From Maritimibacter sp. (GTDB lineage: Bacteria > Pseudomonadota > Alphaproteobacteria > Rhodobacterales > Rhodobacteraceae), in the NCBI GenBank assembly GCA_002701395.1, contig NZVC01000044.1, positions 1-64,000 of the forward strand: a stretch of DNA of 64,000 bases, given 5' to 3'. Under the pieces are notes generated by a model. That model was not told the DNA's origin. It saw only the letters and a list, made by a program, of their open reading frames with translations, and did not search any database. The first letter of the stretch is position 1; every line of letters starts with the position of its first letter. Positions 5,885 to 42,899 of this stretch are shown here, in pieces. The translations under genes and the position numbers were made by a program.

Positions 5885-10021
<4,137 letters not shown>

Positions 10022-35506: not shown

Positions 35507-36196
35507 TTAGTAACGCCGCTTCTTGCTTTTCCAGCTGTCCAGCCATTTGCGGACGCGGCCCCGCCGTTCGTCGATACGCGCGTCGGCGGCATCCCATGCA
35601 TCGCCCGCGCGTTCCATCGCCGGGTCGACGGACCGCTCGCGGAACTGGCGCCACATCGCCCGGATGAACAACGCCGCCACCCCGATGAAGACGAAGAAGA
35701 AGACGTTGAACCACGGGAACGGGCTGTCGTCCGGGCTGTCGACCGGCCGGATCGCGATGGCGTTCGGATAGATCGTGAAGAACCGGTTGCGCCAGCCGTA
35801 TTGCGTGATCACCACCCACTGCGGGTCCGCCGCCGTCGACTGCAGGTTCGACGCTTCGGCCTGCAGGTCCGAGCTGTCGAACTTGAAATACGGCGGCCAG
35901 ATCCAGCCCGTGTCCTCGTTCCGGTAGACCATCACGCCATAGCTGTCGCGCGGGATGAAGCCGAACAGCCACGTCTTGCGCTTCTGCGTGTTGATCAGAC
36001 GCACGTCGCGAGTCTCACCCTCGACGTTGCCGCTGTCGGACTGGGCATAGAACGTCCGGTTGAAGGACGAGAAATCCATCCGGATGACCTCGGTCCCTGT
36101 GATGCGCGCGACATCGTGGCGCGGCAGCACGTAGCTCAGCGTGCCGAACACCAGCACGAAAGCCACGATGCGGAAGAACCATTTCACATAGACCAT
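35507..36196 (-). CDS. DUF1523 family membrane protein
   Basis: A 229-residue protein with two membrane spans (about 5-23 and 163-182) enclosing a periplasmic domain of 140 residues, and a basic cytosolic tail (RRGRVRKWLDSWKSKKRRY). The domain contains NTQKRKTWLFGFIPRDSYGVMVYRN-type sequence that I associate with DUF1523; the function is unknown. It is the last gene of the eight-gene AAA+ cluster, starting ten bases after the 91-residue membrane protein, so it is likely the periplasm-facing part of that system. Confidence 0.8.
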   Translation of the reverse strand: MVYVKWFFRIVAFVLVFGTLSYVLPRHDVARITGTEVIRMDFSSFNRTFYAQSDSGNVEGETRDVRLINTQKRKTWLFGFIPRDSYGVMVYRNEDTGWIWPPYFKFDSSDLQAEASNLQSTAADPQWVVITQYGWRNRFFTIYPNAIAIRPVDSPDDSPFPWFNVFFFVFIGVAALFIRAMWRQFRERSVDPAMERAGDAWDAADARIDERRGRVRKWLDSWKSKKRRY

Positions 36197-36206
36197 GCGT
36201 CTCGCC

Positions 36207-36482
36207 TTAATTCCAGTTCGTCAGGATCAACACCGCGACGACCATCGCGGCGGGGATGATATAGACCAGCAGGATCAGCTTCGGCCTGATCGATGCGTGG
36301 TAGTCCTTCATCCCCTCTTCGACATAGTGCGCCCGGGCCTCGGAATCACCACCTTCGGGGTTGTCCGCGTCCCACGCCTTTTCCAGCTTCTCGCGCCGGA
36401 CGGACCGGGAATATAGCCAGACCAGCCCGTAGACGATGCTGAGCCCGATGAACCCGAAGACGATCAGCCGCACAAGGTTCAT
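36207..36482 (-). CDS. Small membrane protein of the AAA+ cluster, 91 aa
   Basis: A 91-residue protein with one span at each end (about 3-23 and 69-88) and a charged cytosolic or periplasmic middle segment (RREKLEKAWDADNPEGG, then YVEEGMKDYHASIRPKL). I know no named family. It starts three bases after the 459-residue gene and ends ten bases before the DUF1523 gene. Confidence 0.75.
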   Translation of the reverse strand: MNLVRLIVFGFIGLSIVYGLVWLYSRSVRREKLEKAWDADNPEGGDSEARAHYVEEGMKDYHASIRPKLILLVYIIPAAMVVAVLILTNWN

Positions 36483-36485
36483 GGT

Positions 36486-37865
36486 TCAGTTCCTCCGCAC
36501 CGCGCCCCACGGGCCAACGACGTCCACGATGTCCCGGCCCCGCGTCCACGGCCCGCCGCGCCGCGCGGGCTCGGGCTGCGTGTCCGGTTCCTGCATATCC
36601 GGCTCGGGACCGAACAGCGCCTCTCGGGCGCCAGCCTTGTCGACCTGATACTCGGCGGCAAGAAACTCGGCCACGAATTCCTTCTTCATCTCGCTCCAGC
36701 CACGGTACAGCGTGTAGAACAGTTCCTTGTGGCAGATGAACAGCTGCCGCACGTCCAGCGGCGTCAGCTCGGCCAGAAGCTGGTTCACAAGATTCCGCTG
36801 CGGCCCGGCCGTGGCGCGGAGCGTGTAGAAATACGCGGGATGGTCGCTGGCGATCCGGGGCCAGTCGCCACCGCCCTCGGCCCAGCGCAAAAGCGCGTGC
36901 AGCCCGTGATAGGCCTCGGGCAGCGCGCTGCCCAGTTGCCGCGCCAGCATCCGAAGATCGCGCCGCGTCGCGCCGGTCAGATCGTGCCCAAGGGTCGATG
37001 CCACGTCCACAAGGATGAAATCCATCTTCTGCCGCAGGATCGCCGCCGCATCCACGCCGCGCGCCTTCACGATCGGTTCGGCCAATCCGTTCAGATCGAG
37101 AAACTTCGCGATCCGGTTCGGTTCGTTCAGACCAAGCACGAACTTGATCGGCAGCTCCCCCACCGACGCCCCGCCGCCGGTGACGATGGCCGCCGGATGC
37201 TCGACACCCCGGAAGATGTAGATGCCGCCAAAATGCGCCGTCCAGTAATCCTGCACGTCCTCCGTGAACGTGGTCAGATCCACCGGGTTGCGTGTGACGT
37301 CGCCGGTCTGCTTGGCCAGCCCGATCATCTCGGCGATCAGAACGTCGTCCCACCACGCGTCGTCGTCGTTGCGGAAATGCTCGATCTTCTCCTGAAGCTT
37401 GCGCGCGTTCCGAACGTCGCCCGCCGTGGTATCGGCCTCGACCACGATGCGGCTGATGTCGAACAACCGCTGCGGCGTCGACAGGTCGAGAACCGAGTTC
37501 ATCAACTCGCCAGCCACCGCATCGCGGGTGGTCAGCGCGAACAGCTTGGTCTCGTTCTGCTCGATGAAATCCTTCAGGATCGTGCGCGAGAACGAGAACT
37601 TCAGGTTCAGCAACGGCGCCGATTTCTGTTCGGTCGTCAGCAGGATGAACTGCCGGTTGCAGCCGTTCGGGTTCAGGTACAGGTGATCGCCCAACTCGTC
37701 GCCGATCTCCGGCGAATAGCCCGAGACGTCGACGTGGAAATCCTCAAGAGCGGTGGTTTTGCCCGTCAGATGCGTCAGCGCCCGGCGATAACGATCCACC
37801 AGCGCGGGCGAGGACACCTCGACGAGATTGCCGAACATCAGGCCCTTTTCGATCAGGCGTCTCAT
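36486..37865 (-). CDS. Unknown 459-aa protein of the AAA+ cluster (DUF6638-like)
   Basis: A 459-residue soluble protein. The ATG at 37865 (MRRLIEKGLMFGNLVEVSSP) has GGAGG upstream and overlaps the preceding stop codon by four bases. No P-loop or metal motif is seen. The middle part (TRNPVDLTTFTEDVQDYW, then HFGGIYIFRGVEHPAAIVTG) and the segment GELPIKFVLGLNEPNRIAKF look strongly structured. I recall such proteins in Rhodobacterales as DUF6638, with moderate certainty. The C-terminus is Pro/Arg-rich. Context ties it to the AAA+ ATPase. Confidence 0.75.
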   Translation of the reverse strand: MRRLIEKGLMFGNLVEVSSPALVDRYRRALTHLTGKTTALEDFHVDVSGYSPEIGDELGDHLYLNPNGCNRQFILLTTEQKSAPLLNLKFSFSRTILKDFIEQNETKLFALTTRDAVAGELMNSVLDLSTPQRLFDISRIVVEADTTAGDVRNARKLQEKIEHFRNDDDAWWDDVLIAEMIGLAKQTGDVTRNPVDLTTFTEDVQDYWTAHFGGIYIFRGVEHPAAIVTGGGASVGELPIKFVLGLNEPNRIAKFLDLNGLAEPIVKARGVDAAAILRQKMDFILVDVASTLGHDLTGATRRDLRMLARQLGSALPEAYHGLHALLRWAEGGGDWPRIASDHPAYFYTLRATAGPQRNLVNQLLAELTPLDVRQLFICHKELFYTLYRGWSEMKKEFVAEFLAAEYQVDKAGAREALFGPEPDMQEPDTQPEPARRGGPWTRGRDIVDVVGPWGAVRRN

Positions 37866-38242
37866 CCCCGTCCCTCCTGCGCCTTGTCGCGCCCTTTGCG
37901 CTTCTCGACCAGCTGCGCCAGCCCCAGCCATGTCAGCAGCAGCACCGGCACCCACGCCACCGCCGCTGTGCCGGACAGCCTAAGGAAGAACAACCCGGTC
38001 GCGAACGGCGCGTCGCCAAAGGCCTCAGCCACCCCGATGCCGCCCAGCGCGTAGATCACCGCGAAAACAACCGCGCCGGCCAGCAGCACCATCCCGGCCG
38101 AGGCCCAGATCGCCACCGCGACTTCCCACTGGCGGCGCGTTCCCCGCGGCACCATCACCAGCGGCACCACGATTGCCAGCGCGGCCAGCACGATCAGCGG
38201 CAGCCCGGTGTTGAAGAACGTGATCGGCGCTGTGTGCATCAT
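37862..38242 (-). CDS. Membrane protein of the AAA+ cluster, 126 aa
   Basis: A 126-residue protein with three predicted spans (about 12-30, 43-66 and 84-110) and a basic C-terminal tail (VEKRKGRDKAQEGRG). It overlaps both neighbours by four bases, with an ATGATG start, which indicates translational coupling. No named family is known to me. Confidence 0.75.
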   Translation of the reverse strand: MMHTAPITFFNTGLPLIVLAALAIVVPLVMVPRGTRRQWEVAVAIWASAGMVLLAGAVVFAVIYALGGIGVAEAFGDAPFATGLFFLRLSGTAAVAWVPVLLLTWLGLAQLVEKRKGRDKAQEGRG

Positions 38243-38559
38243 GTCTTCCGCCCCGCGACCCAGGCCACGACCAGCGCCGCGACCACCAGCACCGCCGCGG
38301 CGGTCCCCGCGATCCGGATCCAGACCATCGCCGTCATGTCCATCATGACGCCGCCGACCTCTCCCATGTGCCCCGCGAACCCGGTCAGCCGAACCGCCAG
38401 AACCAGCACGAAGGCCAGCAGGCCGAAGGCGATGCCGCCGGCGACGGCCAGCACCCCAACCCCGACGCCACCCGCCCCGCGTGCCTGCGCGATCCGGGAG
38501 CTGAACAGCGCGCCGGCGATCACGAAGCCCAGAAGCAGCAGGAACACGATCGGGCCCAT
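38239..38559 (-). CDS. Membrane protein of the AAA+ cluster, 106 aa
   Basis: A 106-residue protein with three predicted spans (about 2-19, 30-55 and 75-100). The ATG at 38559 (MGPIVFLLLLGFVIAG) is chosen because it lies four bases after the ATPase stop codon and begins the first span. Gly-rich helices (GAGGVGVGVLAVAGG) suggest tight packing or oligomerisation. Family unknown. Confidence 0.72.
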   Translation of the reverse strand: MGPIVFLLLLGFVIAGALFSSRIAQARGAGGVGVGVLAVAGGIAFGLLAFVLVLAVRLTGFAGHMGEVGGVMMDMTAMVWIRIAGTAAAVLVVAALVVAWVAGRKT

Positions 38560-38563
38560 TGGC

Positions 38564-40498
38564 TTAGCCTTTCCCCTCGGCATAGCGCCGCCGGGCTTCT
38601 TCCTGCCGGCCAAAGTCGCGGACCATCGCATCGATCGCGACCTCGTCCGACTTGTCGGCATAGCGGAATTCGCTGTCGGCGTAGCGGTTCACCTCTTGGA
38701 TCACCATGTCGACGGTGATCGGCTGCCGCATGTCTTCCAGCATTTTGAGTTTCTCGTCGTAAGGCTTGAACAGGAACAGGTCCGGCTGTTCCATCCATTC
38801 GTCGGGCAGCTCGAAATCCATTGCCCGCACCTTCACCGCGTCGGTGATGTTCTTGATCGCCCGCCCGGTGAACCGCTCGTCCGCCTCTTGAATGCCCTTC
38901 AGGTAGGTGCCGATCTTCGCGATGGTGTCCAGCTTGCCCAGCTTCGCCTCGGTGGCGTCCCACACGCGCATCAGCCCGTCTTCCTGCGGCCGCCCATGCT
39001 GTTCGAAGGACCGCGCGACGGCCTTCTTGATCTCTTGCGCGGCATACAACTCGTGGTCGCCCAGCGGGATGTCGTGCCGCTTGCCCAGCAGCAGCGCAAG
39101 GATGTCGACATAGTCGTCCCGCGTCTGCGGCCCATCCACAAGGAACCGCGCCCCGGCCCGCTGGCGCAGCGCGTCGTCCACGTTCTCGGGATAGTTCGAG
39201 AACATGCCGAAGGTGCAGTTGCCGCGCACCACGGTGTTGGCGCCCGCGAAGGCCTCCATCAGCACCGCCGTGACCTCTTGCTGACCGGCCGAGGATTGAC
39301 GGTCGCCGCGCTTGCCGGCGATCTGGTCGATGTCATCGACGGTGCCGAAGCCGATCACGTTCGGATCCAGCACGTTGTCGATGAAGGCGCGGGCGTTCTG
39401 CCCCGACTTGCCCTGATAGCTGTCGATGTTGTCGATGCCGAAGTTCTGATAGCGGAACGGGTAGCCCGCGTTCAGGCAGTACTCGTTGATCAGCCCCGCC
39501 ATCATCTGGATCAGGGTGGTCTTGCCGGTGCCGGGCTTGCCGTCGCCCATGAAGGTGAAAATGAACCCGCCCATCTCGGCGAAGGGGTTCAGCTTGCGCT
39601 CGAAGTCGTAGGCCATCAGCATCTTGGCCAGCTTCATCGCCTGATACTTGGCGATGTGGTTGCCCACCACCTCGTTCGGCTTCTTGAACTGCATGGTCAG
39701 GGCAGTGCCCTTCGCCTTCCGCGCCGGGCTGAAGCCTTGAATGGTGAAATCGTCCGCCTCGACCCGCCAGCTGGCGCCGGTGAAGGCGCCCAGCCGCGGC
39801 GCGGTCTGCGCCCGCAGGCCCACCTTCTCCATCAGCTGCTCGGCAAAGGCCAGCACGACCGCGACGATCTTCGCCTCGCCGTCCGCGAAACGCTCCAGAT
39901 CCTGATCCAGCTCCCACAGGGCGCCGTGCAGGGCAAGCTGCGCGTTGTCGGTCAGCATCTCGTCGATGCCGCCCAACTCGACGGTGACCTCCGAGGCCGA
40001 GGACGCCAGAAGAAACGCCACGCCGTTTGCGAAGGTGTACAACACCGCAAGCGCCTCGGCCTGCAGCAGCTCGGCGAACTCGGCAGAGCGCGCCTGCGGC
40101 AACCGCCCCTCAAGGTTTTCCTTCTTCAGCGCCGTCAGGCCGGTGGCCTCGGAAAACCCGTCACCCACGGCCAGTGCGATGGCGATGGCGCGGCGCAGCG
40201 ACTGCATCACCGTCGCCTGCACCGGCGACACCAGCGCATCGCCGCCGTCCGAGCTTTCGATCCGCTCCAGCAGACGCACCCCCTCGGGCCGTGCGGTCGA
40301 CCGCGTCACCAGCCCCGGCGTGGTCGACCGGAACCGCCGCCGCGTGCCGATCCCGCTGGACCGCTCCGGCTGCGGCGCCTCGCCCGGTTTCGCGATCCGC
40401 GGCGTGTGGTCGAAACCTTCCAGCATCGCCACGGCGGCATCGTAATGCGCGCGGATCTCCTCCTCGCGCAGTTCCATCTGATCGCCCGAAACGCTCAT
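38564..40498 (-). CDS. AAA+ ATPase
   Basis: A 644-residue protein. Residues 1-280 form a helical N-terminal region without a known motif. The AAA+ core follows: Walker A GKPGTGKT (320-327), Walker B IGFGTVDDID (Asp388, Asp389), a sensor-1 Asn in MFSNYPE (Asn435), and arginine-finger candidates at Arg445/Arg447. The lid and a C-terminal helical region end at 644. It lacks the zinc finger of FtsH and the second ATPase of Clp proteins, and it looks like a MoxR/AFG1-like or Vps4-like single-ring remodeller. It is the fixed centre of the cluster: two soluble genes lie upstream and five mostly membrane genes downstream. Substrate unknown. Confidence 0.88.
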   Translation of the reverse strand: MSVSGDQMELREEEIRAHYDAAVAMLEGFDHTPRIAKPGEAPQPERSSGIGTRRRFRSTTPGLVTRSTARPEGVRLLERIESSDGGDALVSPVQATVMQSLRRAIAIALAVGDGFSEATGLTALKKENLEGRLPQARSAEFAELLQAEALAVLYTFANGVAFLLASSASEVTVELGGIDEMLTDNAQLALHGALWELDQDLERFADGEAKIVAVVLAFAEQLMEKVGLRAQTAPRLGAFTGASWRVEADDFTIQGFSPARKAKGTALTMQFKKPNEVVGNHIAKYQAMKLAKMLMAYDFERKLNPFAEMGGFIFTFMGDGKPGTGKTTLIQMMAGLINEYCLNAGYPFRYQNFGIDNIDSYQGKSGQNARAFIDNVLDPNVIGFGTVDDIDQIAGKRGDRQSSAGQQEVTAVLMEAFAGANTVVRGNCTFGMFSNYPENVDDALRQRAGARFLVDGPQTRDDYVDILALLLGKRHDIPLGDHELYAAQEIKKAVARSFEQHGRPQEDGLMRVWDATEAKLGKLDTIAKIGTYLKGIQEADERFTGRAIKNITDAVKVRAMDFELPDEWMEQPDLFLFKPYDEKLKMLEDMRQPITVDMVIQEVNRYADSEFRYADKSDEVAIDAMVRDFGRQEEARRRYAEGKG

Positions 40499-40520
40499 CT
40501 CGAAATCCGTTCTTCTTCTG

Positions 40521-40570
40521 TCTTCAAATATCCTGGGGGAGGCGCCGCAGGCGCCGGGGGCAAAGCCCCC
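40521..40570 (-). repeat. REP-like element between two genes of the AAA+ cluster
   Basis: On the minus strand a 6-bp hairpin (40556-40561 / 40565-40570) and a second one (40541-40546 / 40550-40555) are followed by CCCCCAGGATATTTGAAGACA. The GGATATTT core recurs beside gspE (58069-58103). I associate this form with abundant Rhodobacteraceae intergenic repeats. It sits in the only wide gap of the cluster's 3' part. Confidence 0.65.
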
Positions 40571-40631
40571 TCTTCGCGAACGACAGGCCCAATCGTCGGC
40601 GCCGGCGGCGCGCAGTATCGCCGCCCGCCGC

Positions 40632-41771
40632 TCATCGGTAGCTCACAACCTGCCCGCTGCGCGACACCACGAACTTGCGCACGTCGCGAAAGCCGGGCGG
40701 GTTCTTCTCGGCCAGCACCTGAAAGGGACGCGCCGGCATGATGATCGACCGTTCGGTCGCGGTCGCCCCGGTGTCGACGCCCCGGCCCGCGAACGGATCC
40801 AGCGCGAAGATCTCGCGCTCCACTGTCCCGAACCAGCCCGACCGCTCGCGTTCGACCCGCTCGCTTTCCAGCCGTTCCTCGGTCCAGGCCAGCGCCCAGT
40901 CCTGCCCTTCCGGCGCGCGGGCCTCTTCCAGCACATCGTGGATCGGCCCGGTCTGCAGCGTGTAGGCGGCCGAGTACATCGGGCCGATGTGGAACCGTCT
41001 CAGCCGCTTGGGGTGCAGGTCGTCGAAATCGCGATCAAAACCCTGCGCGATGGTCAAAAGCTTCAGCCCGTTCAGCGACTGCGCCATCAGGTGCGCCTGC
41101 GCCTCGGGCCAGCGGCGGTCGTCCACCGGCAGCCCGCGCGCGCCGCTGTCCTCGACCTCCAGCAGGTAGACCGCGGGCAGGTTCACCTGACTGTCGTAGA
41201 CCGCCCAATGCAGCAGATAGCTGCGCCGCTGCGGCCCGATGTCGCCCAGCCACTGCGCTTGCGGGTGGTTCTGCGCCCAGAACATCCCGTCGCGTTCCAG
41301 CGCCTCGTAGTACAGCCGCTGCGACATCGCGAATTGCAGCTTGGTCGGGATCGTCAGGTCGCCCACGATCTGCCGGATCATCTCGTCCTTCAGGGTCGCG
41401 GTGCTCATGGTGCCGGCCAGATGCCGCGACGCCTGCTGGGCATCGTTCGCCATCGTCAGCAGTTCGCGGAACACCGGGAACCCGCTTTCCGTCCGGTCGA
41501 TGGCGATAGAACCGAAGAACGTGCCCGTGTCGCGGCCCGTCATCAGGTACTTCAGGCTCAGCGCCTCGAACGTCGCCGCCAGCGCCTGAACGTAGCCGCC
41601 CAGCACCTTGACGTCGTACTTCGTCAGGCCGCGTTCCTGCTCCATCACCGCCGCGACGCGGGCCAGATGGCCGGTGATCGCCTCGAACTTCTGGAAATAC
41701 CGACGTGCCGCGAAAGTGTCGGTCAACCCGGCATGGTCGCGGGTAAGGTCTTCCTTGATCGTGTCAGACAT
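40632..41771 (-). CDS. Unknown 379-aa soluble protein of the AAA+ cluster
   Basis: A 379-residue protein without signal peptide or membrane span. The N-terminal half is helical (KFEAITGHLARVAAVMEQER, then LGGYVQALAATFEALSLKYL). The middle carries NHPQAQWLGDIGPQRRSYLL and VYLLEVEDSGARGLP, and the end is VRKFVVSRSGQVVSYR. No family is recognised. It starts 51 bases after the coiled-coil gene and precedes the ATPase by 133 bases. Confidence 0.75.
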   Translation of the reverse strand: MSDTIKEDLTRDHAGLTDTFAARRYFQKFEAITGHLARVAAVMEQERGLTKYDVKVLGGYVQALAATFEALSLKYLMTGRDTGTFFGSIAIDRTESGFPVFRELLTMANDAQQASRHLAGTMSTATLKDEMIRQIVGDLTIPTKLQFAMSQRLYYEALERDGMFWAQNHPQAQWLGDIGPQRRSYLLHWAVYDSQVNLPAVYLLEVEDSGARGLPVDDRRWPEAQAHLMAQSLNGLKLLTIAQGFDRDFDDLHPKRLRRFHIGPMYSAAYTLQTGPIHDVLEEARAPEGQDWALAWTEERLESERVERERSGWFGTVEREIFALDPFAGRGVDTGATATERSIIMPARPFQVLAEKNPPGFRDVRKFVVSRSGQVVSYR

Positions 41772-41822
41772 GCGGAGCCTGCGTCATGGCCGTGCAGCCG
41801 TTCCGGGGTCCGTCGGGGCGCA

Positions 41823-42899
41823 TCACGCCCCGTACAGGTTCTTGTCGTGCTTCTCGACAATTTGTTGGAAGCGGCGGGCGAAGCGTTCGTCCGCCTTGGC
41901 CTTTTGCTCCAGCACTTTGCGGGCGAAGACCATGTGATCCTCGTGAGCCTCCATCATGTCGGCCATACGCTGGTTCGTCGCGGTGCCGATGGCGGCCATC
42001 GCGGCCTGCGCTTCCTTGTCCGTCTCGACTCCGATCTCGTTGATCCGGTGCGCGACGTCCTGCTGCTGCGCGGTCTTCAGCGACTTGGTCAGGGCATCGT
42101 ACAGCACGACGCGCTGCTTCGTGTCCGTTTGCAACTTGTTGATCAGCACCATCTGCGTCGCCGCCTGGTTCTGCAGGCTGTCGACCCAGGTTTTGCCCTT
42201 CTCGATGTAGCGTTCCAGCGTCTGGCTTTTCGCCAGCTTCACCTGCTCTTGCTGCACCATCTCGTTGTACTTGGCGTTCATCGCCGCCAGTTCGCCTTCC
42301 AGCTTCGTGCGGGCGGCGGCGTCCTGTTCGACGCTGATCTTGTTCTCAAGCTCGATGATCTTCGGATCCATCGACGCGATCTCGACGCGCAGCGCCTCAA
42401 GCTCGCTGACCACCGCCTCGCGCTCGTCCAGCGTGCCGGTCAGGTTGGTTTCCACCCGGCCCTTGTGGTCGTTCAGCACGTCCAGCTGGTTTTCCAGCAG
42501 CTTCACGATGGTGTCGGACTTGCCGATCAGGTCCTGCAGCTTGTCGTCGATATTGGCGGTGCGGATGCGTTCCTGCCGCATCGAGTCCGCCTTGCCCTTG
42601 GCGAAGATGCCGACGAAGCTTTCCCAGCCCGTCTTGTTGCGCATCTCGTCAAAGTCCTGACTGAACCCGGCGGTCACGTCGTCGAGGCCCATGATCAGCT
42701 CGGCGATGTTCGCGTTCATCAGCTCGGTGTGGGAATGCACGTCGTCCAGCGTCGCGTTCTCGATGTCGATCGAGATGTCGTCGCCCGACTTGGCCTTGGC
42801 CCCCATCGTCTCGACCCGGCTGGTCAGTTCGGAAATCTTTGCCTGCGCCTCGGCCACCTCGGCCTGGCTTTTGCGCACCTGGGCGTCAAAATCGCTCAT
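41823..42899 (-). CDS. Long coiled-coil protein of the AAA+ cluster
   Basis: A 358-residue, almost wholly helical acidic protein. Heptad-like Glu/Lys/Ala patterns run through residues 5-50, 115-270 and 290-350. It resembles TelA/PspA/ESCRT-III-like coiled-coil proteins in general appearance, with segments such as TLERYIEKGKTWVDSLQNQ and NKLQTDTKQRVVLYDAL, but I cannot claim homology. It is the first gene of the cluster and a natural partner or substrate of the AAA+ ATPase. Its promoter should lie in 42900-43083, where I saw no convincing box. Confidence 0.8.
   Translation of the reverse strand: MSDFDAQVRKSQAEVAEAQAKISELTSRVETMGAKAKSGDDISIDIENATLDDVHSHTELMNANIAELIMGLDDVTAGFSQDFDEMRNKTGWESFVGIFAKGKADSMRQERIRTANIDDKLQDLIGKSDTIVKLLENQLDVLNDHKGRVETNLTGTLDEREAVVSELEALRVEIASMDPKIIELENKISVEQDAAARTKLEGELAAMNAKYNEMVQQEQVKLAKSQTLERYIEKGKTWVDSLQNQAATQMVLINKLQTDTKQRVVLYDALTKSLKTAQQQDVAHRINEIGVETDKEAQAAMAAIGTATNQRMADMMEAHEDHMVFARKVLEQKAKADERFARRFQQIVEKHDKNLYGA

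Follow-up and report, generated by a model that had tools for sequence, protein, structure and literature searches.

A four-gene AAA ATPase core holds a hypervariable cargo slot in Maritimibacter sp. and other Rhodobacteraceae

The locus and its slot

Eight genes, labeled A to H, follow one another on the minus strand of a Maritimibacter sp. contig (NZVC01000044.1, assembly GCA_002701395.1), at positions 35507 to 42899 of the window, by which we mean the whole 64,000-nt stretch of DNA that was analyzed. The main new fact is that a hypervariable cargo slot houses the genes for two three-span membrane proteins, D and E, and that part of the slot's content across related loci is defense-like. The slot lies between C, which encodes an AAA ATPase, and F, which encodes a DUF6638 protein, and it changes much faster than the core A-B-C-F. 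Of the core genes, A, C, and F come or go together, and B stands between A and C in those loci that were read. The remaining pair, G-H, is an older resident locus at which the core stands. An initial annotation of this DNA, made from its letters and open reading frames (ORFs), had described eight minus-strand genes, all of which are present, with ORFs of 358, 379, 644, about 106 to 114, 126, 459, 91, and 229 amino acids (aa). It had also pointed to tight spacing from the ATPase on, where indeed every junction is within 10 nt or overlapping.

D (38239 to 38559) encodes a protein with three transmembrane (TM) spans, of 106 aa from the ATG at 38559, which is preceded by a purine-rich sequence and leaves a 4-nt spacing from C, or of 114 aa from the ATG at 38583, which gives a 20-nt overlap. 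The product of E (37862 to 38242; 126 aa, three TM spans) belongs to the commonest slot family, and the gene overlaps both D and F by 4 nt. F-G and G-H are separated by 3 and 10 nt, and A-B (51 nt) and B-C (133 nt) are looser. D had no BLAST relative among the remaining slot ORFs, and a promoter scan found none, with 1.1 expected. The B-C gap contains a GC-rich inverted-repeat stretch (40525 to 40541) ending CTCCCCCAGGATATTTG, which occurs once in the window; similar repeats occur in Rhodobacteraceae genomes. Because rpoB lies in the same window (6134 to 7810), we regard the region as core chromosome.

We compared intergenic distances in 101 distinct complete loci, counting a gap of at least 210 nt as a slot. 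The C-F distance ranged from −4 to 2685 nt (median, 692) and reached the threshold in 87 of the 101 loci, and the F-G and G-H distances reached it in none. An overlap of 4 or 1 nt at the C stop opens 52 of the 87 filled slots, the same kind of overlap at the F start closes 69, and 41 have both; at shifted positions in the same slots, the test gave 26 and 6 of 696. Overlapping starts are a sign of cotranslation, and the cargo usually overlaps C and F by 1 to 4 nt, as cotranslated genes do. In one cargo-free locus, C and F overlap each other by 4 nt. In two loci (L039 and L074), the A-B gap holds a Phd/YefM-like antitoxin ORF followed by a PemK/MazF-like ORF, recognized by eye and presumably a toxin-antitoxin-like pair.

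Mechanical ORF calling in the slots of 112 loci, a set in which some genomes are represented twice, yielded 133 ORFs, some surely spurious. BLAST clustering gave families of 28, 15, and 6 members, the rest having 1 to 3. Among 53 locus pairs with ATPases at least 95% identical, the cargo was related in 28 and unrelated in 25. For family scans we used 107 ORFs, namely, an endonuclease of S. meliloti and 106 ORFs taken from the 131 in slots other than that of the window (duplicates and unlikely frames left out). Most cargo proteins are small and have membrane spans by a simple hydropathy count. Eight of the 107 ORFs exceeded the Pfam cutoff in conflict families: putAbiC (three), AbiJ_NTD4 (three), Mrr (one), and DUF559 (one). 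The putAbiC matches (L045, L109, and L110; best E value, 1.7e-18) are the tails of members of the 15-member family, which combines a conserved two-TM start with a variable tail, and the AbiJ_NTD4 matches are three related 340-aa proteins (L050, L051, and L135). Mrr was matched by cargo of L072 (5.4e-32) and DUF559 by the S. meliloti cargo. Some members of the 6-member family and the cargo of L120 carry RN...H motifs resembling those of HEPN RNases and, judged by the motif alone, may be such enzymes.

Supporting a difference between the slot and its surroundings, AbiP, AbiC, and restriction-enzyme models of PADLOC match some slot ORFs, and no Abi or restriction-nuclease model was among all 16 PADLOC models that matched flanking control ORFs (the first 107 of 117).

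Core proteins, their distribution, and the resident locus

The product of C (38564 to 40498) matches the Pfam AAA family (PF00004; residues 320 to 453; E value, 1e-11) at 45.8 bits against a cutoff of 21.2, its sole family over the cutoff. It has one AAA domain and an N-terminal region of ∼310 residues without a known family. Across the 101 loci, Walker A is GTGKT in 100 and GTAKT in one, and sensor 1 (SN) and the arginine-finger region (ALRQRAG) are invariant. The initial annotation had called the motif set complete, which holds for these elements and fails for Walker B: in all 101 loci it is Asp-Asp, with Asp in place of the usual hydrolytic Glu in the register set by alignment with a VCP-like ATPase. 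The canonical Walker B Glu is usual for AAA ATPases and is not required for membership. The stretch SYQGKS, conserved in 100 or 101 of the 101 loci, aligns with SKYYGQS of the VCP-like ATPase and presumably marks an aromatic pore-loop-like position. Based on its sequence, C is an AAA ATPase with putative ATP hydrolysis.

A (41823 to 42899) encodes a coiled-coil protein that ranks first in conservation among these proteins (mean column identity over 25 loci, 83%); a protein that self-assembles or has several partners would be expected to show this. The proposal in the initial annotation that the ATPase acts on this helical protein is reasonable, because an AAA ATPase with an aromatic pore-loop-like position and a conserved A travel together. 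The 459-aa protein of F (36486 to 37865), which had been listed as unknown, is Pfam DUF6638 (PF20343; 9.8e-225), a family for which the literature searched contains no paper naming it by either designation. A scan of the eight window proteins against Pfam gave nothing above the cutoff for A, B, D, E, or G.

B (40632 to 41771) encodes a soluble protein with a helical N-terminal half and a beta domain. Structure models were built from alignments of close relatives only. In the model of B (predicted local distance difference test score [pLDDT], 85.9), residues 179 to 309 weakly match solved structures (best Z, 5.7, below 8; root mean square deviation, 3.8; 92 aligned; best Foldseek E value, 0.24), and the top ten are what we take to be T-fold enzymes, a similarity too weak to assign this fold. 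For F (model pLDDT, 80.1), Foldseek and VIA-align gave no credible match among solved structures (best Z, 4.6), and PDB sequence profiles returned nothing credible for A, B, or F.

Among 149 genomes of the family, A occurred in 65, C in 63, and F in 69; all three occurred together in 63, none occurred in 79, and parts occurred in 7, several of them fragmentary. Every one of the 63 genomes with C also has A and F. Conservation as a set holds for A, C, and F and not for the eight genes as a unit. In 41 loci (40 fetched for having C and that of the window), A, B, C, F, G, and H were present in all and E-like genes in 14. We discarded 24 apparent matches to D in the loci chosen for the ATPase, all of which start inside C and are artifacts of the C-D overlap. 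The order A-B-C-F was kept in all 19 further loci, comprising 14 fetched from phylum and class matches, three rhizobial replicons, and two Vibrio replicons; because this order recurs in loci of other families at 25 to 55% identity, the arrangement is not due to chance.

Seventy-one of 80 named loci contain all genes from B to H, with A missing from one at a contig end, and 7 are cut off by contig ends. On two contigs that go on, we found no F, G, or H within 5.5 kb (L092) and no C within 8 kb (L132); candidate explanations for these exceptions are a large insertion, breakage, or an assembly error.

Farther afield, 8 of the 385 class genomes searched had DUF6638; 7 of these matches exceeded the cutoff, and 5 of the 8 genomes are from Rhodobacteraceae. 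Relatives of B were found in 20 of 299 genomes of the phylum, including 10 from Rhodobacteraceae and 1 from another class, and loci were fetched for 5 of the 8 genomes of family f174 with a B match. In that other class, DUF6638 was found in 1 of 239 genomes, the one on which the search was centered. A genome of another class carries A-B-C-F-G-H without cargo and with a 4-nt C-F overlap (L184), likely reflecting transfer of the whole cargo-free operon.

Within the family, distances between core proteins track those of rpoB in 30 genomes (rank correlations of 0.86 for B, 0.75 for C, 0.68 for F, and 0.61 for A), and none of 999 permutations reached the observed values. This result fits old presence followed by repeated loss better than frequent transfer. 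Scans of viral contigs returned none for the ATPase and one contig for the coiled coil, and the 10 matches in a plasmid collection were all to rhizobial replicons or to Vibrio replicons of 0.88 to 0.94 Mb. As far as searched, the core-bearing module is not phage borne.

Downstream of F, G (36207 to 36482) encodes a membrane protein and H (35507 to 36196) a membrane protein whose identification as DUF1523 in the initial annotation was confirmed (PF07509; 3.1e-63). Of the 149 family genomes, 130 have DUF1523; the figure is 62 among the 63 C-bearing genomes and also 62 among the 79 that lack A, C, and F. We collected 30 loci from genomes without C, 20 chosen for DUF1523 and 10 for an E-like gene (the latter from 10 of 13 coreless genomes with an E match). 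All 30 contained H, 18 had a G match, and in 10 an E gene adjoined H; A, B, and C were not found in any of them. Both the left and the right neighbor were common to core-bearing loci in 11 of the 30 (31 pairs, the closest being L269 with L048), and one coreless locus (L286) retains, directly before G-H, a relic covering the final 59 DUF6638 positions. The common flanks and the relic show that A-B-C-slot-F comes and goes at one site beside the older G-H pair. Because G-H and E-H also occur where the core is missing, we rejected the reading of all eight genes as one machine.

The place occupied by G and DUF1523 in Rhodobacteraceae is taken by a DUF2333 protein after F in seven of eight core loci of f174 and Rhizobiaceae (L185, L186, L188, L189, L190, L219, and L220). 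The two Vibrio core loci contained no match to G or H. In one of them (L217, 5010 to 6210), proteins of 90 and 279 aa without a Pfam match lie directly before A and may represent either the local equivalents of G and H or a second slot.

A possible conflict module and its rivals

Our reading shifts from the envelope polymer machine of the initial annotation to a conflict module that is accessory, driven by ATP, and fitted with a plug-in effector slot, which we place ahead of each single rival with a confidence just short of even. Its most likely targets would be phages or other elements. Under this reading, A would assemble on or near the inner membrane as the substrate or scaffold of a ring of C, which would act on it through the pore loop. 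B and F would be adaptors, and F would probably link the core with the cargo whose translation directly precedes its own. An infection or stress signal would lead the ATPase to shift the assembly state of the complex, and cargo would then be released or activated. It would damage membranes (three-TM and putAbiC-type two-TM proteins) or nucleic acids (Mrr, DUF559, and HEPN-like proteins) and so stop the infected cell; in the window, this cargo would be D and E. Somewhat more tentatively still, the module may be an undescribed immune chassis, in which a classical AAA ATPase, a coiled-coil scaffold, and two further proteins hold a socket for cotranslated effectors. Roseobacters would swap membrane toxins, HEPN RNases, and nucleases in this socket, the chassis being long inherited beside the DUF1523 locus.

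Several observations weigh against a conflict module. Inheritance of the core within the family is mostly vertical, which sets it apart from many defense systems; no phage record among those searched holds ATPase C; and no PADLOC system model fits the core, which gave weak generic matches for the AAA domain and the coiled coil. Only 8 of the 107 scanned cargo ORFs match a conflict family over the cutoff, the others being mostly small membrane proteins, and the three mutually related AbiJ proteins may stem from one recruitment. Matches of cargo to HNH (L055), DUF5677 (L091), and DUF4145 (L120) lie below the cutoff, as does a match to a histidine-kinase-type ATPase (L036). Control flanks match PADLOC too, through generic models (methyltransferase, regulator, and CARF-like). 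The 25 of 115 flank Pfam families listed describe ordinary metabolism and no defense island, with methyltransferases, dehydrogenases, and a flagellar gene as examples.

Nor is cargo confined to the slot or the slot always filled. E-type genes, the commonest cargo family, occur in 36 of the 149 genomes, 13 of which lack C. The putAbiC-type family occurs in 9, with four strong matches in slots and five weaker ones elsewhere, three of these five in genomes without C. Insertions extend beyond the slot, as A-B gaps reach 210 nt in 52 of the 101 loci and B-C gaps in 13, and some of these gaps hold small variable membrane or lipoprotein-like ORFs. The core can exist without cargo, because the C-F distance is below 210 nt in 14 of the 101 loci and is nil or nearly so in the Vibrio cores and several of the rhizobial ones.

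The main rival, possible though less favored, is an envelope-maintenance machine. C would remodel an assembly of A at the inner membrane with B and F as adaptors, the small membrane proteins would be fast-evolving adaptors or substrates, and the defense-like genes would be passengers. The strong conservation of A, the mostly vertical core, and the membrane nature of most cargo and of G and H are consistent with such a role, as are the small membrane ORFs in A-B gaps and the DUF2333 gene that stands where Rhodobacteraceae have DUF1523. However, 79 of the 149 family genomes live without A, C, and F, no PspA, ESCRT, or TelA homology was found for A, and an adaptor slot would not be expected to recruit several Abi and nuclease families in an overlapping position.

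An unlikely alternative to the conflict module is that the C-F junction is a hot spot tolerating small genes whose products have no working link to the core. The wide variety of cargo, its occurrence outside the slot, the extra ORFs at the A-B and B-C junctions, and the toxin-antitoxin-like pair in two A-B gaps all fit this view; it sits poorly with two-sided overlaps far above the control and with the lack of F-G and G-H insertions. We consider it very improbable that A is a divergent TelA and the module a system for toxic-anion or tellurite-type stress. Both are long helical proteins, and a local stretch aligns; yet A has no TelA match (PF05816) in Pfam at an E value of ≤1, the hhalign profile comparison gave a probability of 9.7%, and the only TelA match of the genome, a genuine TelA, lies on another contig (contig 39). 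A was therefore rejected as a TelA, and the comparison drawn in the initial annotation with PspA, ESCRT, and TelA found no homology behind it.

If the conflict module proves true, each natural slot is a ready list of candidate effectors, including small membrane proteins missed by family searches, and the chassis would make it possible to study how a single ATPase controls toxins unrelated to one another, with a first functional lead for DUF6638. Should the defense reading fail, an all-or-none ATPase module in Rhodobacteraceae, rhizobia, and vibrios would still need explaining.

Comparison with known systems

Like TelA, PspA, and ESCRT-III systems, the locus places a long helical protein beside membrane proteins and, as in ESCRT, an AAA ATPase; unlike them, A lacks a PspA/IM30 or Snf7 profile match at an E value of ≤1, and we found no profile relationship. 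The TRIP13-type ATPase of the cyclic oligonucleotide-based antiphage signaling system (CBASS) offers the idea of an AAA switch in immunity and a weak PADLOC match to the AAA domain of C (1.6e-4), whereas scans of the core found no cyclase or HORMA family. With the classical AAA ATPases FtsH, CDC48/VCP, proteasome Rpt, and katanin, C shares the Pfam AAA family, Walker A, the aromatic pore-loop-like position, sensor 1, and the arginines; it differs in the Asp that replaces the hydrolytic Glu, the N-terminal region of ∼310 residues, and the single AAA domain.

Conflict systems in which an NTPase switches hypervariable effectors have been published as MoxR-vWA ternary systems (Kaur et al. 2020, PMC7159879). 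Pfam searches at an E value of ≤1 gave no MoxR or chelatase family for C and no vWA match in the eight proteins. Those systems resemble the present one in joining an AAA-type ATPase core to accessory proteins and rapidly exchanged genes, some of nuclease or toxic families. They differ in that C matches classical AAA and that the cargo here, for the most part small membrane proteins, occupies a single fixed and overlapping slot. Hypervariable linked genes, a MoxR-vWA trait, are also seen here, with predicted effector families forming a minority of them.

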